A program made the position numbers and the translations under genes. A stretch of 18,390 bases of DNA from Candidatus Altarchaeum sp. (GTDB lineage Archaea > Altiarchaeota > Altiarchaeia > Altiarchaeales > Altiarchaeaceae), in contig JAGTWP010000025.1 of NCBI GenBank assembly GCA_018260755.1, positions 1 to 18,390 on the forward strand, given 5' to 3'. Numbering within the stretch: the first letter of the stretch is position 1; every line of letters begins with the position of its first letter. The notes below the pieces were generated by a model. That model was not told where the DNA came from, did not search any database, and worked only from the letters and a program-made list of their open reading frames with translations. Of this stretch, positions 1 to 17,116 are shown piece by piece.

Positions 1-185
1 ACCCAAAAAATTACGAGTAAATTTTTTGATTTTTTGGTATTTTTTGAAATTTTACGCTCACTTCGTTCGTGTATTTTCAAACAAGTTTGAAAATCGTAGG
101 TATTAAAAAATATTTGAAATATTTTTTAAGATTGAAAATTTATTTATAAATTTTCAGTAAATTTTTGTACCCTCTGAATAGTTAC
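1..185. mobile_element. Miniature inverted-repeat element, copy 1 (left end outside window)
   Basis: The right terminal repeat CTGAATAGTTAC is at 174-185. The body is almost identical to 16963-17108 (two differences over about 145 bases), including the linker TTTTACGCTCACTTCG... and three perfect stem-loops: 74-93 (TTTTCAAAC/GTTTGAAAA), 103-129 (TTAAAAAATATT/AATATTTTTTAA) and 133-156 (TGAAAATTTAT/ATAAATTTTCA). The left terminus and its target duplication are cut off by the window edge. No ORF is present, so the element is non-autonomous. It lies about 70 bases upstream of the exporter operon start. Confidence 0.85.
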
Positions 186-3702: not shown

Positions 3703-3881
3703 GTAACTATTCAGCCACCCCAAAAATCACAGGTAATTTAAAAATTTTTAGATTTTTAAAGATTGAAAATCTTGTGGATTTTCAGTAATTTTTTGAAATT
3801 TTACGCTCACTTCGTTCGTGTATTTTCAAACAAGTTTGAAAATCGCAGGTATTAAAAAATATTTGAAATATTTTTTAAGAT
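3703..3881. mobile_element. Miniature inverted-repeat element, copy 2 (right end lost)
   Basis: The left terminal repeat GTAACTATTCAG is at 3703-3714, followed by the family's subterminal CCACCC. The body carries two stem-loops not present in the other copies, 3737-3760 (TTTAAAAAT/ATTTTTAAA) and 3764-3784 (TGAAAATC/GATTTTCA). It then has the conserved linker (3799-3826) and the two hairpins also seen in copies 1 and 4. The sequence matches the other copies as far as TTTTTTAAGATT and then switches abruptly to an unrelated repeat (AGACATGTTGC) at 3883. The right terminus is absent, so the copy was truncated by a second insertion or deletion. Confidence 0.85.
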
Positions 3882-3882
3882 T

Positions 3883-3961
3883 AGACATGTTGCAAAATAA
3901 CTTTTCCACCTTTGAATTTTATTGGTTTTCACCTTTAAAATTTTTAATTTACAACAACTCT
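3883..3961. mobile_element. Remnant with AGACATGTTGC/ACAACAACTCT ends
   Basis: The left end AGACATGTTGCAAAATAA and the right end ACAACAACTCT resemble the ends of the next element (4010-4239). Both ends are flanked by ATT, which could be a short target duplication. The 79-bp interior has no ORF. It is probably a highly deleted insertion-sequence derivative; its family is unidentified. Confidence 0.45.
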
Positions 3962-4009
3962 ATTATATAAAATTCCTTTCTGACAAAGTCCTTCCAGCTT
4001 TTAATTATT

Positions 4010-4239
4010 AGACATGTTGCGAAATAATTTTCAATCTATTGTTATTTTAAATTTATTACCACCATTTAAAACTTTGTTTTAAATCTCTAAGCAAAGCGAG
4101 GTGATAAAAAAATAAATTTTCAGATGGTTTATCTATTGTTGTTGTAAAAACCTCTCAGGTTTTTAGAATACTCAAAAATGTTTCAAACATTTTTGATATG
4201 ATATAAAATAGCATATATAAACTATTTCGCAACAACTCT
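4010..4239. mobile_element. Small non-coding element with TGTTGCGAAATA inverted ends
   Basis: A perfect 12-bp inverted repeat (TGTTGCGAAATA at 4015-4026, its complement at 4223-4234) extends imperfectly outward as AGACA and AGAGT on the respective arms. ATT flanks both ends (4007-4009 and 4240-4242). The interior has two clean stem-loops: 4146-4164 (AAAAACCT/AGGTTTTT) and 4172-4196 (TCAAAAATGTTT/AAACATTTTTGA, 1-base loop). There is no transposase, so this is a miniature element or deletion derivative. Its right end interrupts the pseudogene that follows. Confidence 0.65.
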
Positions 4240-4477
4240 ATTGTTAGTTCTTCATTGGAAAATTTTTTGGAGTTTTCTTCAACATAACTATCAATAATTT
4301 CAGGATGGTCAAAAATATAATCTCTAACTTCTACTAAATATTTTCTCTCCACTTTTCTTATATCTATATCCTCTGTTTTGTTGATGTCCTTTGAAATTTG
4401 CCTTTTTTATTTGCATATACAAGCAACGGCTTGTAGAGTTTATAAAACAACTCAATATCTTTTTTCTCAAGTTGCAT
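4240..4477 (-). pseudogene. Frameshifted and truncated gene, possibly of a SEC-C-motif protein family
   Basis: On the minus strand an ATG at 4477 begins MQLEKKDIELFYKLYKPLL... and meets a stop after about 33 codons. A shift of one base at the A6 run (T6 on the plus strand, 4403-4408) opens a second frame, which continues through 'DINKTEDIDIRKVERKYLV' and 'VRDYIFDHPEIIDSYVEEN'. Joined, the two parts resemble the N-terminal half of small SEC-C/YecA-associated proteins as I remember them ('FYKLW.PLL.YVN', 'VR..LW.NPEIID.F..EN'). The reading frame then runs into the inverted repeat of the 4010-4239 element, so the C-terminal half is gone. Family assignment is from memory and tentative; the frameshift and truncation are visible in the sequence. 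Confidence 0.5.
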
Positions 4478-4988: not shown

Positions 4989-6563
4989 TCAAATATGCTT
5001 TCTTAAATCCTCATAAATCCTTTCAACATTTTTCTTCCATTCAAAAAATTTCTCAGGAGACGGATAATTCTTATACAGTTCTTTTATTTCCTTCATCTTT
5101 TTTACCGTATAAGCGAGTTTTTTCGCAATGCTTAAAGCAGATAAGCCTTTTGATAGTCGCATTATTTTTTCCACTATGCTTAAATTTATTTCCTCCCCCT
5201 CTGAAATTTTAATTAAGTCATCTTCTTTTATCATGCCCGAACTCATTCCGGAATTTACTTCTTCATCGCTTAAATTTTGTAAAAAGATCCTGAATAAATC
5301 CAGCGAGGCAATAGTTCCGCCGTAATTTTGCATATAATAAGAATTATACTCCCATAAATCATTAAGCGAAATTTTGCCAATGCCATCCCTACCGTTTCTT
5401 TCATAAATTTTTTTTATTGCCATTCCTGCAAAATATCCTGCTCTCATCGCCTGCCCGATTCCGCCGCCGTGAATAGGATTTACCTGACATGCAGCATCAC
5501 CGACAAGCATAATTCCAATTCCGTTTTGCATTGCAACAAGCGAATCAACAGGTCTTCTTGTTGGACTAATGCCTCCGCCGGCATTAATAATTTCACTGTT
5601 TAAAAATTTTTCCCCCATAAATTTTGCGTATTGAGCATATTGTTTTTTTGGTGCCGAAGGATACAAAACACCCAATCCAACATTTAAATGCTCACCTTCC
5701 GGAAATTCCCAAACATAGCCGCCCGGTGAAAATTTATTGCTTAAATAAATATGGCAATGATGTGGATCTTCAAAATTATATTTTTTAATTTCCCGGTAAC
5801 ATATTGCCATGTCATTTTGAGCAATGTCTTTTTCCATGAGTAATAGAGCATTGTTATTATTATTGTTGTTATTATTATTATTGTTGTTATTATTATTGTT
5901 GTTATTATTATTGTTATTATTATTATTGTTGTTATTATTATTGTTGTTATTATTATTGTTATTATTATTATTGTTGTTATTATTGTTGTTATTATTATTA
6001 TTGTTATTATTATTATTGTTGTTATTATTATTGTTAATATTGTTATTATTGTTATTATTGTTGTTATTATTATTAGTCCTTTTCCTGACAACTGCATTAA
6101 ATCCCGATGCATCAATCACTATTTTGCATTCAATCTTTTCATTTTTCACTCCATCCTCTTTTCTCTCAACGATGATGCCTTTTTCATAAAAGTCCGTAAA
6201 TTTTGTATTGCTCATTAAATGAACATTTTTTATTTGTCTTAATAAATGCTGCCCGAATTTATGCCTGTCAAGCATATATCCACCCTCCTTTGTTTCAACA
6301 TTAAAGACCGTCTTTCTGTCCGGAGAAAATACCTTTATTCCATCAATTCTGTCCTTTACTTCTTCATCGGGATATTCCAAATTTATCTTTTCATATAAAA
6401 AGTCAAAAAATTCTTTTCCGACAGCATCGCCGCAGACCTTTTCGCCTATTTTTTCTCTTGGTTTTGTGTCTATCAAACATACAGATAAATTTGAATCATC
6501 TAAGGTTTTTGCTGCAATTGCACCCCCTGGACCTGCCCCTACAATCACTACATCATAATACAT
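4989..6563 (-). CDS. Geranylgeranyl reductase family flavoprotein with a poly-asparagine insert
   Basis: This is a FAD-dependent reductase of 524 residues. It has an N-terminal Rossmann motif GAGPGG (about 9-14), the family signature around 'GEKVCGDAVG' (C44), 'DASGF' before the insert, 'PGGYVWEFPEGEHLNVGLG', and the second FAD motif 'VGDAACQVNPIHGGGIGQAMRAG' (about 355). Family members saturate geranylgeranyl chains of archaeal ether lipids or other polyprenyl groups. The start is the ATG at 6561-6563 (MYYDVVIVGAGPGG); the frame stays open upstream, but that extension is low-complexity and not family-like. Residues 164-238 are 74 Asn plus one Ile, placed in the loop after the FAD-binding strand. 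Without the insert the protein would be about 449 residues, nearer family size. The frame is intact on both sides, so the gene appears functional. Confidence 0.9.
   Translation of the reverse strand: MYYDVVIVGAGPGGAIAAKTLDDSNLSVCLIDTKPREKIGEKVCGDAVGKEFFDFLYEKINLEYPDEEVKDRIDGIKVFSPDRKTVFNVETKEGGYMLDRHKFGQHLLRQIKNVHLMSNTKFTDFYEKGIIVERKEDGVKNEKIECKIVIDASGFNAVVRKRTNNNNNNNNNNNNINNNNNNNNNNNNNNNNNNNNNNNNNNNNNNNNNNNNNNNNNNNNNNNNNNNNNNNNNNNNNNALLLMEKDIAQNDMAICYREIKKYNFEDPHHCHIYLSNKFSPGGYVWEFPEGEHLNVGLGVLYPSAPKKQYAQYAKFMGEKFLNSEIINAGGGISPTRRPVDSLVAMQNGIGIMLVGDAACQVNPIHGGGIGQAMRAGYFAGMAIKKIYERNGRDGIGKISLNDLWEYNSYYMQNYGGTIASLDLFRIFLQNLSDEEVNSGMSSGMIKEDDLIKISEGEEINLSIVEKIMRLSKGLSALSIAKKLAYTVKKMKEIKELYKNYPSPEKFFEWKKNVERIYEDLRKHI
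5850..6074 (-). repeat. In-frame AAT/AAC microsatellite encoding 74 Asn and 1 Ile
   Basis: The array is 225 bases of strictly 3-base-period sequence, read as AAT and AAC on the coding strand, with one ATT (Ile). The two codons alternate in blocks (two AAC, three or four AAT), which gives a second-order period of 15-18 bases and points to growth by duplication of short blocks, not by single-codon slippage alone. It ends cleanly at a Thr codon on one side and an Ala codon on the other. It lies inside the geranylgeranyl reductase gene. Confidence 0.95.
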
Positions 6564-9168: not shown

Positions 9169-9270
9169 ATGCTTATACATTTTATAGTATAACGATATGG
9201 CTATGCTTATACATTTTATAGTATAAAGATACGCCTATGCTTATACATTTTATAGTATAAAGATATAAAT
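9169..9270 (+). repeat. Three 34-bp direct repeats upstream of the AAA ATPase gene
   Basis: Units lie at 9169-9202, 9203-9236 and 9237-9270. The first 24 bases are invariant and the last 10 vary. Each core holds an inverted repeat TTATAC/GTATAA with an 8-base spacer. The array is phased at 34 bases (close to three helical turns) and ends 35 bases before the ATPase ATG. This arrangement resembles a multi-site operator or iteron; that role is inferred. Confidence 0.85.
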
Positions 9271-12179: not shown

Positions 12180-12280
12180 GTAACTACTCACCCGCCCAAA
12201 AAATTACAGGTAAATTTTTTGATTTTTTGTATTTTTTTGAAGGTTTTGCAGGTAAATTTTGTTAATCTGTGAGTAGTTAC
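12180..12280. mobile_element. Miniature inverted-repeat element, copy 3 (complete, 101 bp)
   Basis: The element is bounded by perfect 12-bp inverted repeats, GTAACTACTCAC (12180-12191) and GTGAGTAGTTAC (12269-12280), and flanked by the 8-bp duplication TTTTATTC. It shares the CGCCCAAAAAATTAC subterminal part with copies 2 and 4 but lacks all the palindromic modules, so it is close to a minimal form. It has no ORF. GTAA ends with 8-bp duplications are typical of IS66-family elements, which makes IS66 a candidate for the helper transposase; this is inferred. The element lies between two convergent genes without damaging either. Confidence 0.92.
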
Positions 12281-14993: not shown

Positions 14994-15584
14994 TTATGCT
15001 TTTACGCATACAACTCCGCTAACCTCCTCATAAATTTTAACCTCAAATCCAACCCCCCTCAACCGATTAACTATTCCTTTTTCAACCTTTCTGTTTCTGT
15101 ATTTGCTGCCAGGATTGGAAACATAATGAAACAATTTTCCGTGTGGCTTCAGGATACGATATAAATTTTCATAAAAAACTTTTCCGTACAATTCACCCGC
15201 CATTGAAACAGTCGGAGGATCGTGAAGGATATAATCAAATGACTTGTCACCAAATTTTTCTATTTCATAATACGCGTCGCCAATAATTGAATTTATATTT
15301 TTATTTGCGAACAACTCATGAGAAAATTTGTTATTTCTTGCAATTTCAATAACATTTTCATCTTTTTCAATTGTAACAACTTCATTAGCACAGTGTGATG
15401 CCGCAATTGCCGTATATCCCAGTCCAGTACATATATCCAAAATCCTTCCCTTTTTAATTCCTAAAATTTTCACCTTGTTTTCGGCGTCCTTTTTCGGAGA
15501 TGTCCATTTCATACAATGCATCAGGATTCCGTCAATCATCAGAGCGGGATAATCTTCCGTAGGAATTAATTTATAAACAGCCAT
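14994..15584 (-). CDS. COG2521-type archaeal SAM-dependent methyltransferase, lacking the usual N-terminal segment
   Basis: This 196-residue protein opens directly at the conserved 'YKLIPTEDYPALMIDGILMH'. The Rossmann motif I ILDICTGLGYTAIA, 'VVTIEKDENVIEIARNN', 'IIGDAYYEI', 'DYILHDPPTVSMAGELYGKVFYENLYRILKPHGKLFHYVSNPG' and 'VNRLRGVGFEV' follow. It matches the archaeal family COG2521 (predicted RNA or DNA methyltransferase, substrate unproven). As I recall it, the family normally has roughly 90-110 additional N-terminal residues, absent here. An in-frame stop lies four codons upstream of the ATG at 15584, inside the end of the adjoining tandem repeat, so the start cannot be moved. The usual DPPR is DPPT. 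It is probably co-transcribed between idsA and lhr. Confidence 0.82.
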   Translation of the reverse strand: MAVYKLIPTEDYPALMIDGILMHCMKWTSPKKDAENKVKILGIKKGRILDICTGLGYTAIAASHCANEVVTIEKDENVIEIARNNKFSHELFANKNINSIIGDAYYEIEKFGDKSFDYILHDPPTVSMAGELYGKVFYENLYRILKPHGKLFHYVSNPGSKYRNRKVEKGIVNRLRGVGFEVKIYEEVSGVVCVKA

Positions 15585-15592
15585 CGCAAAAA

Positions 15593-15837
15593 ATTACAAT
15601 CTTACTATATTACAATTTTACAACATATAATATTACAATCTTACTATATTACAATCTTACAACATATAATATTACAATCTTACTATATTACAATTTTACA
15701 ACATACAATCTTACAACATTATAATTTTACAACATATAATATTACAACCTTACAATATTACCATTTTACAACATATAATATTACAATCTTACAACATTAC
15801 AATTTTACAACATATAATATTACAACATACAATATTA
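15593..15837. repeat. 39-bp-period minisatellite, about six units
   Basis: The first two units (15593-15631 and 15632-15670) differ at one base. Later units show deletions and substitutions, and each unit is itself made of roughly 13-base subunits of the form ATTACAATNTTAC. The array fills the whole gap between the GGPP synthase and methyltransferase genes. It supplies the stop codon of the first (15835-15837) and an in-frame stop before the second. On the transcript the units read as repeated UGUUGUAA/UUGUAAUAU. Confidence 0.88.
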
Positions 15838-16848
15838 CACCTTTCTTGTAATTATAAAATCAATTAAATTTACAAGCACATCCTTACTCTCGTTGTTAAT
15901 GTCCGCAGTCGCTTCCATAAAAATTTCCCTTGCCTTGTTTGCAAATTCATACGATTTTTGTTTTGCATATTCAATGGACTTATAGGACTTCATTAAATTT
16001 AAAACATATAAAACATCATCATCCGTCTTATCGGTTCTTTTTTTCATGTATATTTTTATGACTTTCTTTTTCTCATCTGCAGTGCAGGTTTTTATAAGGT
16101 TGGCGAATATCAAAGTAAGTTTCCCCTCTCTTATGTCGCCTCCGATTTCCTTTCCGTAAATTTTTTCATCACCCGTTAAATTTAAAACATCGTCCTGTAT
16201 TTGGAATGCCTTACCGATTGCATCTCCGAATGGCCGGATAAATTTTAGACGTTCCGCATCAACTCCAGCAATTCTCGCTCCTAAAATCATAGGGGTTGTA
16301 ATTGAATAAAGACACGTCTTACCTTCGGCAATTCTGTAAAAGTCATCTTCGGAAAAGTCCTCTTTGACATTTTCCGTCCAGTGAATTTCCAGATACTGCC
16401 CTGCGGCAGTTCTTTCAAGCGTTGCATACATAATATCTATTATCTCAAAGGTAATATCATCGCCTAAAATTTCCCTGTTTTTCCTGAGCACATTCATCAT
16501 TATTAAGTACAACGCATCGCCAGCATTCACTGCAACAGGTACTCCATAAATTTTGTGTAAGACGGGTTTTCCTCTCCTCATATCCGAATCGTCTTCAATG
16601 TCATCATGAATTAAAATCCATTCTTCGCTTAATTGCATGGCAACAGCAGTATTTAAAGCAGTGGTTCCTTTTCCACCAAACATTTCGTAAGTAATTAGTA
16701 CCAGGAATGGCCGCAAATATTTTCCTTTTCGCAACGGATATTCTCTTAAAATGTTGTAGTGGTCAATAGGCTCTTTTTGCGGAATCTCTTTTATTAGTAG
16801 GTCAAATACCTTTTCCCTGTATTCTTCCAAAATTTTTAAAAAATCCAT
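15835..16848 (-). CDS. idsA: Geranylgeranyl diphosphate synthase (short-chain isoprenyl diphosphate synthase)
   Basis: This 337-residue prenyltransferase elongates DMAPP with IPP, presumably to C20 GGPP, the precursor of archaeal ether lipids. The first Asp-rich motif is HDDIEDDSDMRRG (D82, D83, D86) and the second is FQIQDDVLNLTGD (D219, D220). 'LRKGKYLRPFLV' (IPP-binding Lys/Arg) and 'EGKTCLYSITTPMILGA' (after a Glu-rich helix) are also present. Residue -5 from the first Asp is Trp77, a bulky aromatic at the chain-length-determining position of archaeal type I GGPP synthases, where Phe is usual. This supports a short (C15-C20) product. The stop lies at the edge of the 39-bp minisatellite. 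A miniature mobile element (with its duplication) ends 8 bases before the ATG, so the native promoter has been displaced. Confidence 0.93.
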   Translation of the reverse strand: MDFLKILEEYREKVFDLLIKEIPQKEPIDHYNILREYPLRKGKYLRPFLVLITYEMFGGKGTTALNTAVAMQLSEEWILIHDDIEDDSDMRRGKPVLHKIYGVPVAVNAGDALYLIMMNVLRKNREILGDDITFEIIDIMYATLERTAAGQYLEIHWTENVKEDFSEDDFYRIAEGKTCLYSITTPMILGARIAGVDAERLKFIRPFGDAIGKAFQIQDDVLNLTGDEKIYGKEIGGDIREGKLTLIFANLIKTCTADEKKKVIKIYMKKRTDKTDDDVLYVLNLMKSYKSIEYAKQKSYEFANKAREIFMEATADINNESKDVLVNLIDFIITRKV

Positions 16849-16856
16849 AATTTAAT

Positions 16857-16864
16857 TTTAACTT
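16857..16864. repeat. 8-bp target duplication, left copy (element copy 4)
   Basis: TTTAACTT, directly left of the GTAACTATTCAG terminus and identical to 17109-17116. It lies 8 bases from the idsA start codon. Confidence 0.9.
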
Positions 16865-17108
16865 GTAACTATTCAGCCACCCAAAAAATTACGAGTAAAT
16901 TTTTTGATTTTTACGCTCACTTCGTTCGTGTATTTTAAAATCTTTGAGATTTTAAAATTGTATTTTTTGAAATTTTACGCTCACTTCGTTCGTGTATTTT
17001 CAAACAAGTTTGAAAATCGCAGGTATTAAAAAATATTTGAAATATTTTTTAAGATTGAAAATTTATTTATAAATTTCCAGTAAATTTTTGTACCCTCTGA
17101 ATAGTTAC
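16865..17108. mobile_element. Miniature inverted-repeat element, copy 4 (complete, 244 bp)
   Basis: Perfect 12-bp inverted termini GTAACTATTCAG (16865-16876) and CTGAATAGTTAC (17097-17108) are flanked by the 8-bp duplication TTTAACTT. The imperfect inverted repeat extends inward to about 30 bases. The interior holds two copies of a 28-base linker (16909-16936 and 16973-17000), each followed by a different perfect hairpin: ATTTTAAAATC/GATTTTAAAAT at 16932-16958 and TTTTCAAAC/GTTTGAAAA at 16997-17016. Two more palindromes shared with copy 1 follow. There is no ORF. It occupies nearly all of the gap between GAPDH and idsA, so it probably affects idsA transcription. Confidence 0.93.
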
Positions 17109-17116
17109 TTTAACTT
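17109..17116. repeat. 8-bp target duplication, right copy (element copy 4)
   Basis: TTTAACTT, directly right of the CTGAATAGTTAC terminus and identical to 16857-16864. Confidence 0.9.

Follow-up and report, generated by a model that had tools for sequence, protein, structure and literature searches.

Palindromic hairpin units within and outside IS66-type MITEs of Candidatus Altarchaeum

Mobile hairpin elements in which pairing is kept are known mainly from mitochondria. Palindromic GC clusters of yeast mitochondria have very short direct repeats at their flanks (AG or ACT), have constrained stems, and merge and shuffle (PMC4478555), while sponge mitochondria contain hairpin and double-hairpin repeats (RHE; PMC2800124). 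Perfect stems can be produced by template switching, in which one arm serves as template for the other and a single event explains paired changes at several bases (PMC8794818). Members of the IS66 family have ends starting with GTAA and are flanked by 8-bp direct repeats (PMC11946415). No description of repeats like those reported here, in Altarchaeum or in other Archaea, was found in the literature searched, which excludes most subscription journals.

In Candidatus Altarchaeum, discrete hairpin units with fixed connectors are dispersed through the genome, show a partial site preference, have passed between diverged MITE backbones and keep their stems paired. The reading favoured here, with a probability of about 0.58, is that these are small mobile hairpin elements, nested in an IS66-type MITE, whose arms are kept perfect by templated copying. 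The window (the whole 18,390-nucleotide stretch of DNA analysed) corresponds to contig C58 in a genome of 1.32 Mb and 78 contigs (G000).

MITE1 and its relationship to IS66

GTAACT-ended elements of the window belong to a family (MITE1) of IS66-type MITEs. Four copies lie in the window (Table 1), where ends with no more than one mismatch exceed chance (4 observed vs 0.05 expected). All four are where the sequence-only reading had placed them, within a phenomenon larger than it described, with the corrections that copy 1 is cut by the contig edge (about 14 left-end bases missing) and copy 2 has a left end only. Another type of inverted-repeat element (3881-4242, apparently two copies) lies at the end of copy 2, its first copy (3881 onward) interrupting MITE1 just past a GATT connector; the longer of the two holds additional palindromes. 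Elsewhere in the window, a 15-bp-period tandem repeat (5790-6115) encodes a long poly-asparagine run within an ORF that, judged by eye, has the look of a geranylgeranyl-reductase-type flavoprotein, and between genes lie a 34-bp triplicate and a further tandem repeat of short period (9169-9270 and 15556-15851).

Table 1 MITE1 copies, their modules and adjoining features in the window.
Feature	Positions	Strand	Description
MITE1 copy 1	1-185	+	Truncated at contig edge
Copy 1, type II module	54-94		
Copy 1, type I unit	103-159		
MITE1 copy 2	3703-3882	+	Left end present, without right end (limit approximate, ~3882)
Copy 2, type I unit	3737-3787		At left GGTAA site
Copy 2, type II module	3803-3843		
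Copy 2, second type I unit	3879-3882		Cut after GATT (positions given)
Other inverted-repeat element type	3881-4242	.	Ends TAGACATGTTGC / GCAACAACTCTA; apparently two copies
MITE1 copy 3	12180-12280	+	Complete, module-less, 101 bp; diverged subfamily, GTAACTACTCACCC ends; flanked by perfect 8-bp duplication TTTTATTC
Copy 4 target duplication, left	16857-16864	.	8 bp, perfect, TTTAACTT
MITE1 copy 4	16865-17108	+	Complete, 244 bp; GTAACTATTCAG inverted ends
Copy 4, type II module	16913-16958	+	Base site 48; connector ACGCTCACTTCGTTCGTGTA and hairpin 16933-16957
Copy 4, type II module	16977-17017	+	Base site 66; connector ACGCTCACTTCGTTCGTGTA and different hairpin 16997-17016
Copy 4, type I double-hairpin unit	17026-17082	+	Base site 75; hairpins A (17026-17052) and B (17057-17078; one broken pair), with GATT between them and AGTA after B
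Copy 4 target duplication, right	17109-17116	.	8 bp, perfect, TTTAACTT

The base form of MITE1 is a 101-bp module-less core with 12-bp inverted ends starting GTAA (GTAACTATTCAG on both sides) and 8-bp target duplications; copies range from 101 to 389 bp and carry no transposase gene of their own. The window's genome contains about 97 exact matches to the GTAACTATTCAG end and no fewer than 37 copies with both ends; the 8-bp duplications are perfect in 20 of these 37 and have one mismatch in 3 more. Many G000 contigs end within MITE1 or hairpin arrays, so that copy numbers are likely underestimates. Copy 3, previously said to have ‘lost all modules’, is one of at least eight module-less copies in this genome, which identifies the module-less 101-bp sequence as the base form; copy 3 is thus not a demonstration of loss.

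Elements with MITE1 ends and 8-bp duplications encode IS66 transposases in a Methanosarcinales genome (L187, 4988-6638; 484-aa ORF, DDE_Tnp_IS66, 5e-48) and a Methanomicrobiales genome (L147; DDE_Tnp_IS66, 3e-40). Within Altarchaeum, a broken 1725-bp IS66 element with MITE1 ends is present in a sister species (G001, L310, 516-2240), and two 361-bp elements of the window's genome have terminal sequence in common with it and, by inspection, also the start of its reading frame. IS66 transposase (PF03050) gave no match in the window's own genome (85% complete), a result that bears on present activity of MITE1, not on its descent. MITE1, a MITE of IS66 type that is non-autonomous and built on the 101-bp core, makes up the first of two nested layers; its movement would presumably be provided in trans by an IS66 transposase.

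Three other genomes of the genus carry MITE1, and named Candidatus Altarchaeum contigs carry its end. A genome from another archaeal family (G049) was rejected as a source of relatives, giving one weak match (77% over 71 bp). MITE1 ends and a perfect 8-bp duplication (TATAAAAT) also bound an element of 1607 bp (L188, 5977-7583) that encodes two proteins, one with a TIR domain (also matching ThsB_TIR) and one with a PIN domain, and lacks a transposase; it is a non-autonomous IS66-type transposon that carries cargo, possibly defence genes.

Hairpin modules as a separate dispersed repeat

MITE1 copies hold zero to four palindromic modules at fixed sites, inserted relative to the 101-bp base at positions 48, 66, 75 and 83, each independently present or absent. 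Modules at sites 48 and 66 (type II) consist of ACGCTCACTTCGTTCGTGTA followed by a hairpin, and that at site 75 (type I) is a double hairpin, A-GATT-B-AGTA; the same site is occupied by different hairpins in different species. Copies differ by modules at fixed sites and are not simple point-mutation relatives of one ancestor. In the window itself, the 28-base linker TTTTACGCTCACTTCGTTCGTGTATTTT of copy 4 occurs at 16909 and 16973 with a different hairpin after each, and the outer frame GATTGAAAAT...ATTTTCAGTA encloses differing cores, both as first described from sequence; the stem-loops, then called perfect, include one with a broken pair (last hairpin, B, of copy 4; TTTCC for TTTTC).

The proposed shuffling of modules within a mobile element is borne out by the independent filling of sites and by modules common to diverged backbones. 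Modules of C75:2919-3121, L361 and C26:1519-1674 are identical to the reference modules (57/57 and 46/46 bases), while their backbones match the window copy at only 88/100, 87/101 and 79/100 positions, respectively. Identical modules on backbones that are 12-21% diverged indicate passage of modules between backbones. Such identity at identical sites is also what would be expected if the modules had a single origin and were spread only by MITE transposition and homologous exchange (recombination or gene conversion), with no independent mobility of units. The connectors offer short homologies for this, some copies are mosaic (e.g. C40, C67), and the commonest type I module lies almost only at MITE-like sites, so that much of its spread may be due to MITE-MITE conversion and require no transposition. 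We nevertheless consider exchange alone an unlikely explanation: L353 and L360 are unique loci that carry units and whose orthologues are empty, another MITE family has units at a corresponding GGTA site, and arrays exist outside MITEs.

Two further structures in G000 involve MITE1. A complex module that includes the type II connector in inverted orientation (C13:9067-9440, C67:3628-3919, C40:24986-25237) is found at two different MITE sites with different hairpins after it. At C57:11146-11463, two left ends are fused head to head at hairpin TTAAAAAATATTTGAAATATTTTTTAA, together with another inverted-repeat insert; this resembles a snap-back product or an inverted recombinant and suggests templated or recombinational change, with the palindromes involved in the rearrangement.

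The palindromes had been taken for parts of the element family, but are also found alone and in MITE2, a second family with GTATTTGTTTAGCT / AGCTAAACAAATAC ends and 8-bp duplications (L333, L344, L351, L503 and others), and are a separate dispersed repeat rather than parts of MITE1. Units of about 40-80 bp, each a single or a double hairpin, are spread through intergenic DNA, and the double-hairpin unit occurs outside MITE1 either solitary or in head-to-tail arrays of up to eight units. The pattern GATTGAAA-N(2-28)-TTTCAGTA has 99 matches in the window's genome and 37, 173 and 213 in the other three Altarchaeum genomes (0 for the reversed pattern, used as a control), and a stricter form was found only in these four of the 297 archaeal genomes searched, being absent from the other 293. 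Units enter MITE1 and MITE2 alike at GGTA(A). Two other identities were considered and rejected: CRISPR, prompted by the motif ATTGAAA (the units are self-complementary, dispersed and stem-variable), and a viral carrier (a pattern scan of viral contigs gave single matches per contig, none with MITE ends, and these were treated as chance).

That units are gained as discrete insertions, often behind GTA, is seen from empty sites. The unit at L353 is present in G000 and missing from G003, in otherwise aligned DNA, as well as from G001 and G002, and the array at L347 is absent from the three relatives. A composite unit at L360 is missing in G002; 8 bases, TAAAAAAT, lie on both sides of it, the right copy being one arm of the last hairpin, a pattern compatible with a duplication as well as with snap-back copying of the target. 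The MITE2 copy at L503 lacks a unit and MITE1 empty sites were also found; pairs from the all-against-all locus comparison for empty sites were mostly MITE-internal. At L356, G000 and G003 share the array, its flanks and the hairpin B frame but differ in hairpin A, the G003 one being broken in part towards the outside; such a difference between orthologues suggests templated or recombinational change. Of 45 distinct contexts, 18 have GTA or GTAA at the left junction and 27 do not, and the connectors CTCA and GATT also precede units; a binomial figure for GTA enrichment was discounted, as boundaries had been chosen by pairing and contexts may be related. Unit flanks (GTA/TA) are compatible with a 2-3 bp duplication, with ambiguous boundaries.

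Chimeric assembly of repeats, a concern in metagenome-assembled genomes when so many contigs end inside repeats, has a negligible chance of accounting for these structures: perfect 8-bp duplications surround moduled copies, arrays lie mid-contig between orthologous flanks, and the same architecture recurs in four separate assemblies.

On this evidence the second layer of the favoured reading, mobile hairpin elements nested in MITEs, would consist of palindromic modules inserting as discrete 40-60 bp units into MITEs, each other and intergenic DNA, the best-defined module being the double hairpin [A-GATT-B-AGTA]. Units would chain head to tail because each ends in AGTA and often follows GTA. 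Their movement as hairpin elements would be due to an enzyme or to a replication or repair process, and recombination would also carry modules between MITEs.

Pairing kept through replacement of stems

Connectors are conserved and stems are replaced yet still paired (permutation P ≤ 0.0005). When arms were re-dealt among cores of equal length, no shuffle reached the observed number of pairs for hairpin B (382/422 vs 359 ± 3.8), hairpin A (371/420 vs 347 ± 5.8) or type II hairpins (241/270 vs 217.8 ± 3.95), although cores were pre-filtered by their outer bases and copies are related, so that these figures do not count independent events. The excess was weaker when only the inner part of hairpin B was considered (141/170 vs 131.2 ± 2.6; largest shuffle 143). 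Among 166 hairpin B units, 131 are fully paired except at the innermost position, 25 have one mismatch, eight have two or more and two have an indel in one arm. Pairing is kept in most copies and exceeds that of re-dealt arms, in agreement with the initial claim that it survives replacement of the stem sequence.

Intact pairing in most copies, its excess over re-dealt arms, strong conservation of connectors and the folding of the 244-bp copy 4 (z = -5.4) are also consistent with hairpins kept by selection for a function of the host or element, such as RNA processing, transcription stop, protein binding or DNA structure in transposition, with stem changes as compensatory mutations and modules copied around with MITEs. 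A host function, raised from the outset, is possible, but selection appears unlikely as the explanation: the units are confined to one genus, their stem and loop sequences are freely replaced, they occur in many unrelated contexts, their orientation relative to genes has no clear bias (in a crude test), and an Rfam search of the window matched no family. A terminator or promoter role specifically was set aside for the same lack of clear orientation bias, a weak test.

Under templated copying, as favoured here, one arm would be copied from the other by template switching at the hairpin, and whole cores may be swapped by recombination through the conserved connectors; stems would stay paired while cores change because of these two processes together. 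Loop inversion is a prediction of template switching, and one candidate pair only was noticed (CTTACAG/CTGTAAG). More tentatively, the units may represent a genus-specific class of archaeal mobile elements made up of hairpin pairs only, whose insertion close to GTA involves no known transposase and which spread into unrelated MITEs; with palindromes kept perfect by arm copying, covariation here would mark a mutational process, not a selected structure.

Comparison with known repeat systems

MITE1 resembles IS66-family IS and MITEs in its GTAA ends and 8-bp repeats, and elements with IS66 transposase found here have the same ends; it differs from IS66-family IS in being non-autonomous, with a 101-bp base and inserted palindromic modules. 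In architecture, the aspect compared, it is also like the MITE-like BOX elements (boxA, boxB and boxC) of Streptococcus pneumoniae (PMC3049150), whose terminal parts likewise enclose internal modules in varying number and which also have inverted ends and duplicated target sites, whereas Altarchaeum modules have variable paired stems, occupy several fixed sites and also occur outside MITE1 and in MITE2.

REP/BIME sequences mobilised with RAYT (PMC3733652) are likewise short dispersed palindromes with unpaired tags, occurring in groups, and the Altarchaeum units insert beside a tetranucleotide resembling their own end. A comparable system, with AGTA as the tag and a Y1 (RAYT-type) transposase whose substrate would be single-stranded DNA, is nevertheless very unlikely here. 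The fixed tags are GATT and AGTA, neither GTAG nor CGTC, and units are arranged head to tail and not as inverted pairs. Y1_Tnp (PF01797) was found in none of the four Altarchaeum genomes (65-87% complete), with control genomes positive, and by that test this is not a REP/RAYT system.

Hairpins generated by template switching have been described for RNA genes (PMC8794818), and are proposed here for a mobile repeat. The units number in the hundreds across four species, and because their connectors are fixed, their cores vary and empty sites exist, they provide a natural test of whether paired stem changes stem from selection or from templated mutation, and a caution that covariation is not by itself proof of a functional RNA. 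If modules move alone, Archaea would have an enzyme or repair route for moving hairpins.

By analogy, the closest working parallel to the Altarchaeum units is the palindromic elements of mitochondria, which are similar in size (roughly 40-80 bp), in having one or two hairpins and in their intergenic scatter (PMC4478555, PMC2800124); palindromes merge and shuffle in Altarchaeum too. Mitochondrial elements are organellar and often GC-rich, whereas the Altarchaeum units lie in an AT-rich archaeal chromosome, form head-to-tail chains with GATT/AGTA connectors and are nested in MITEs.
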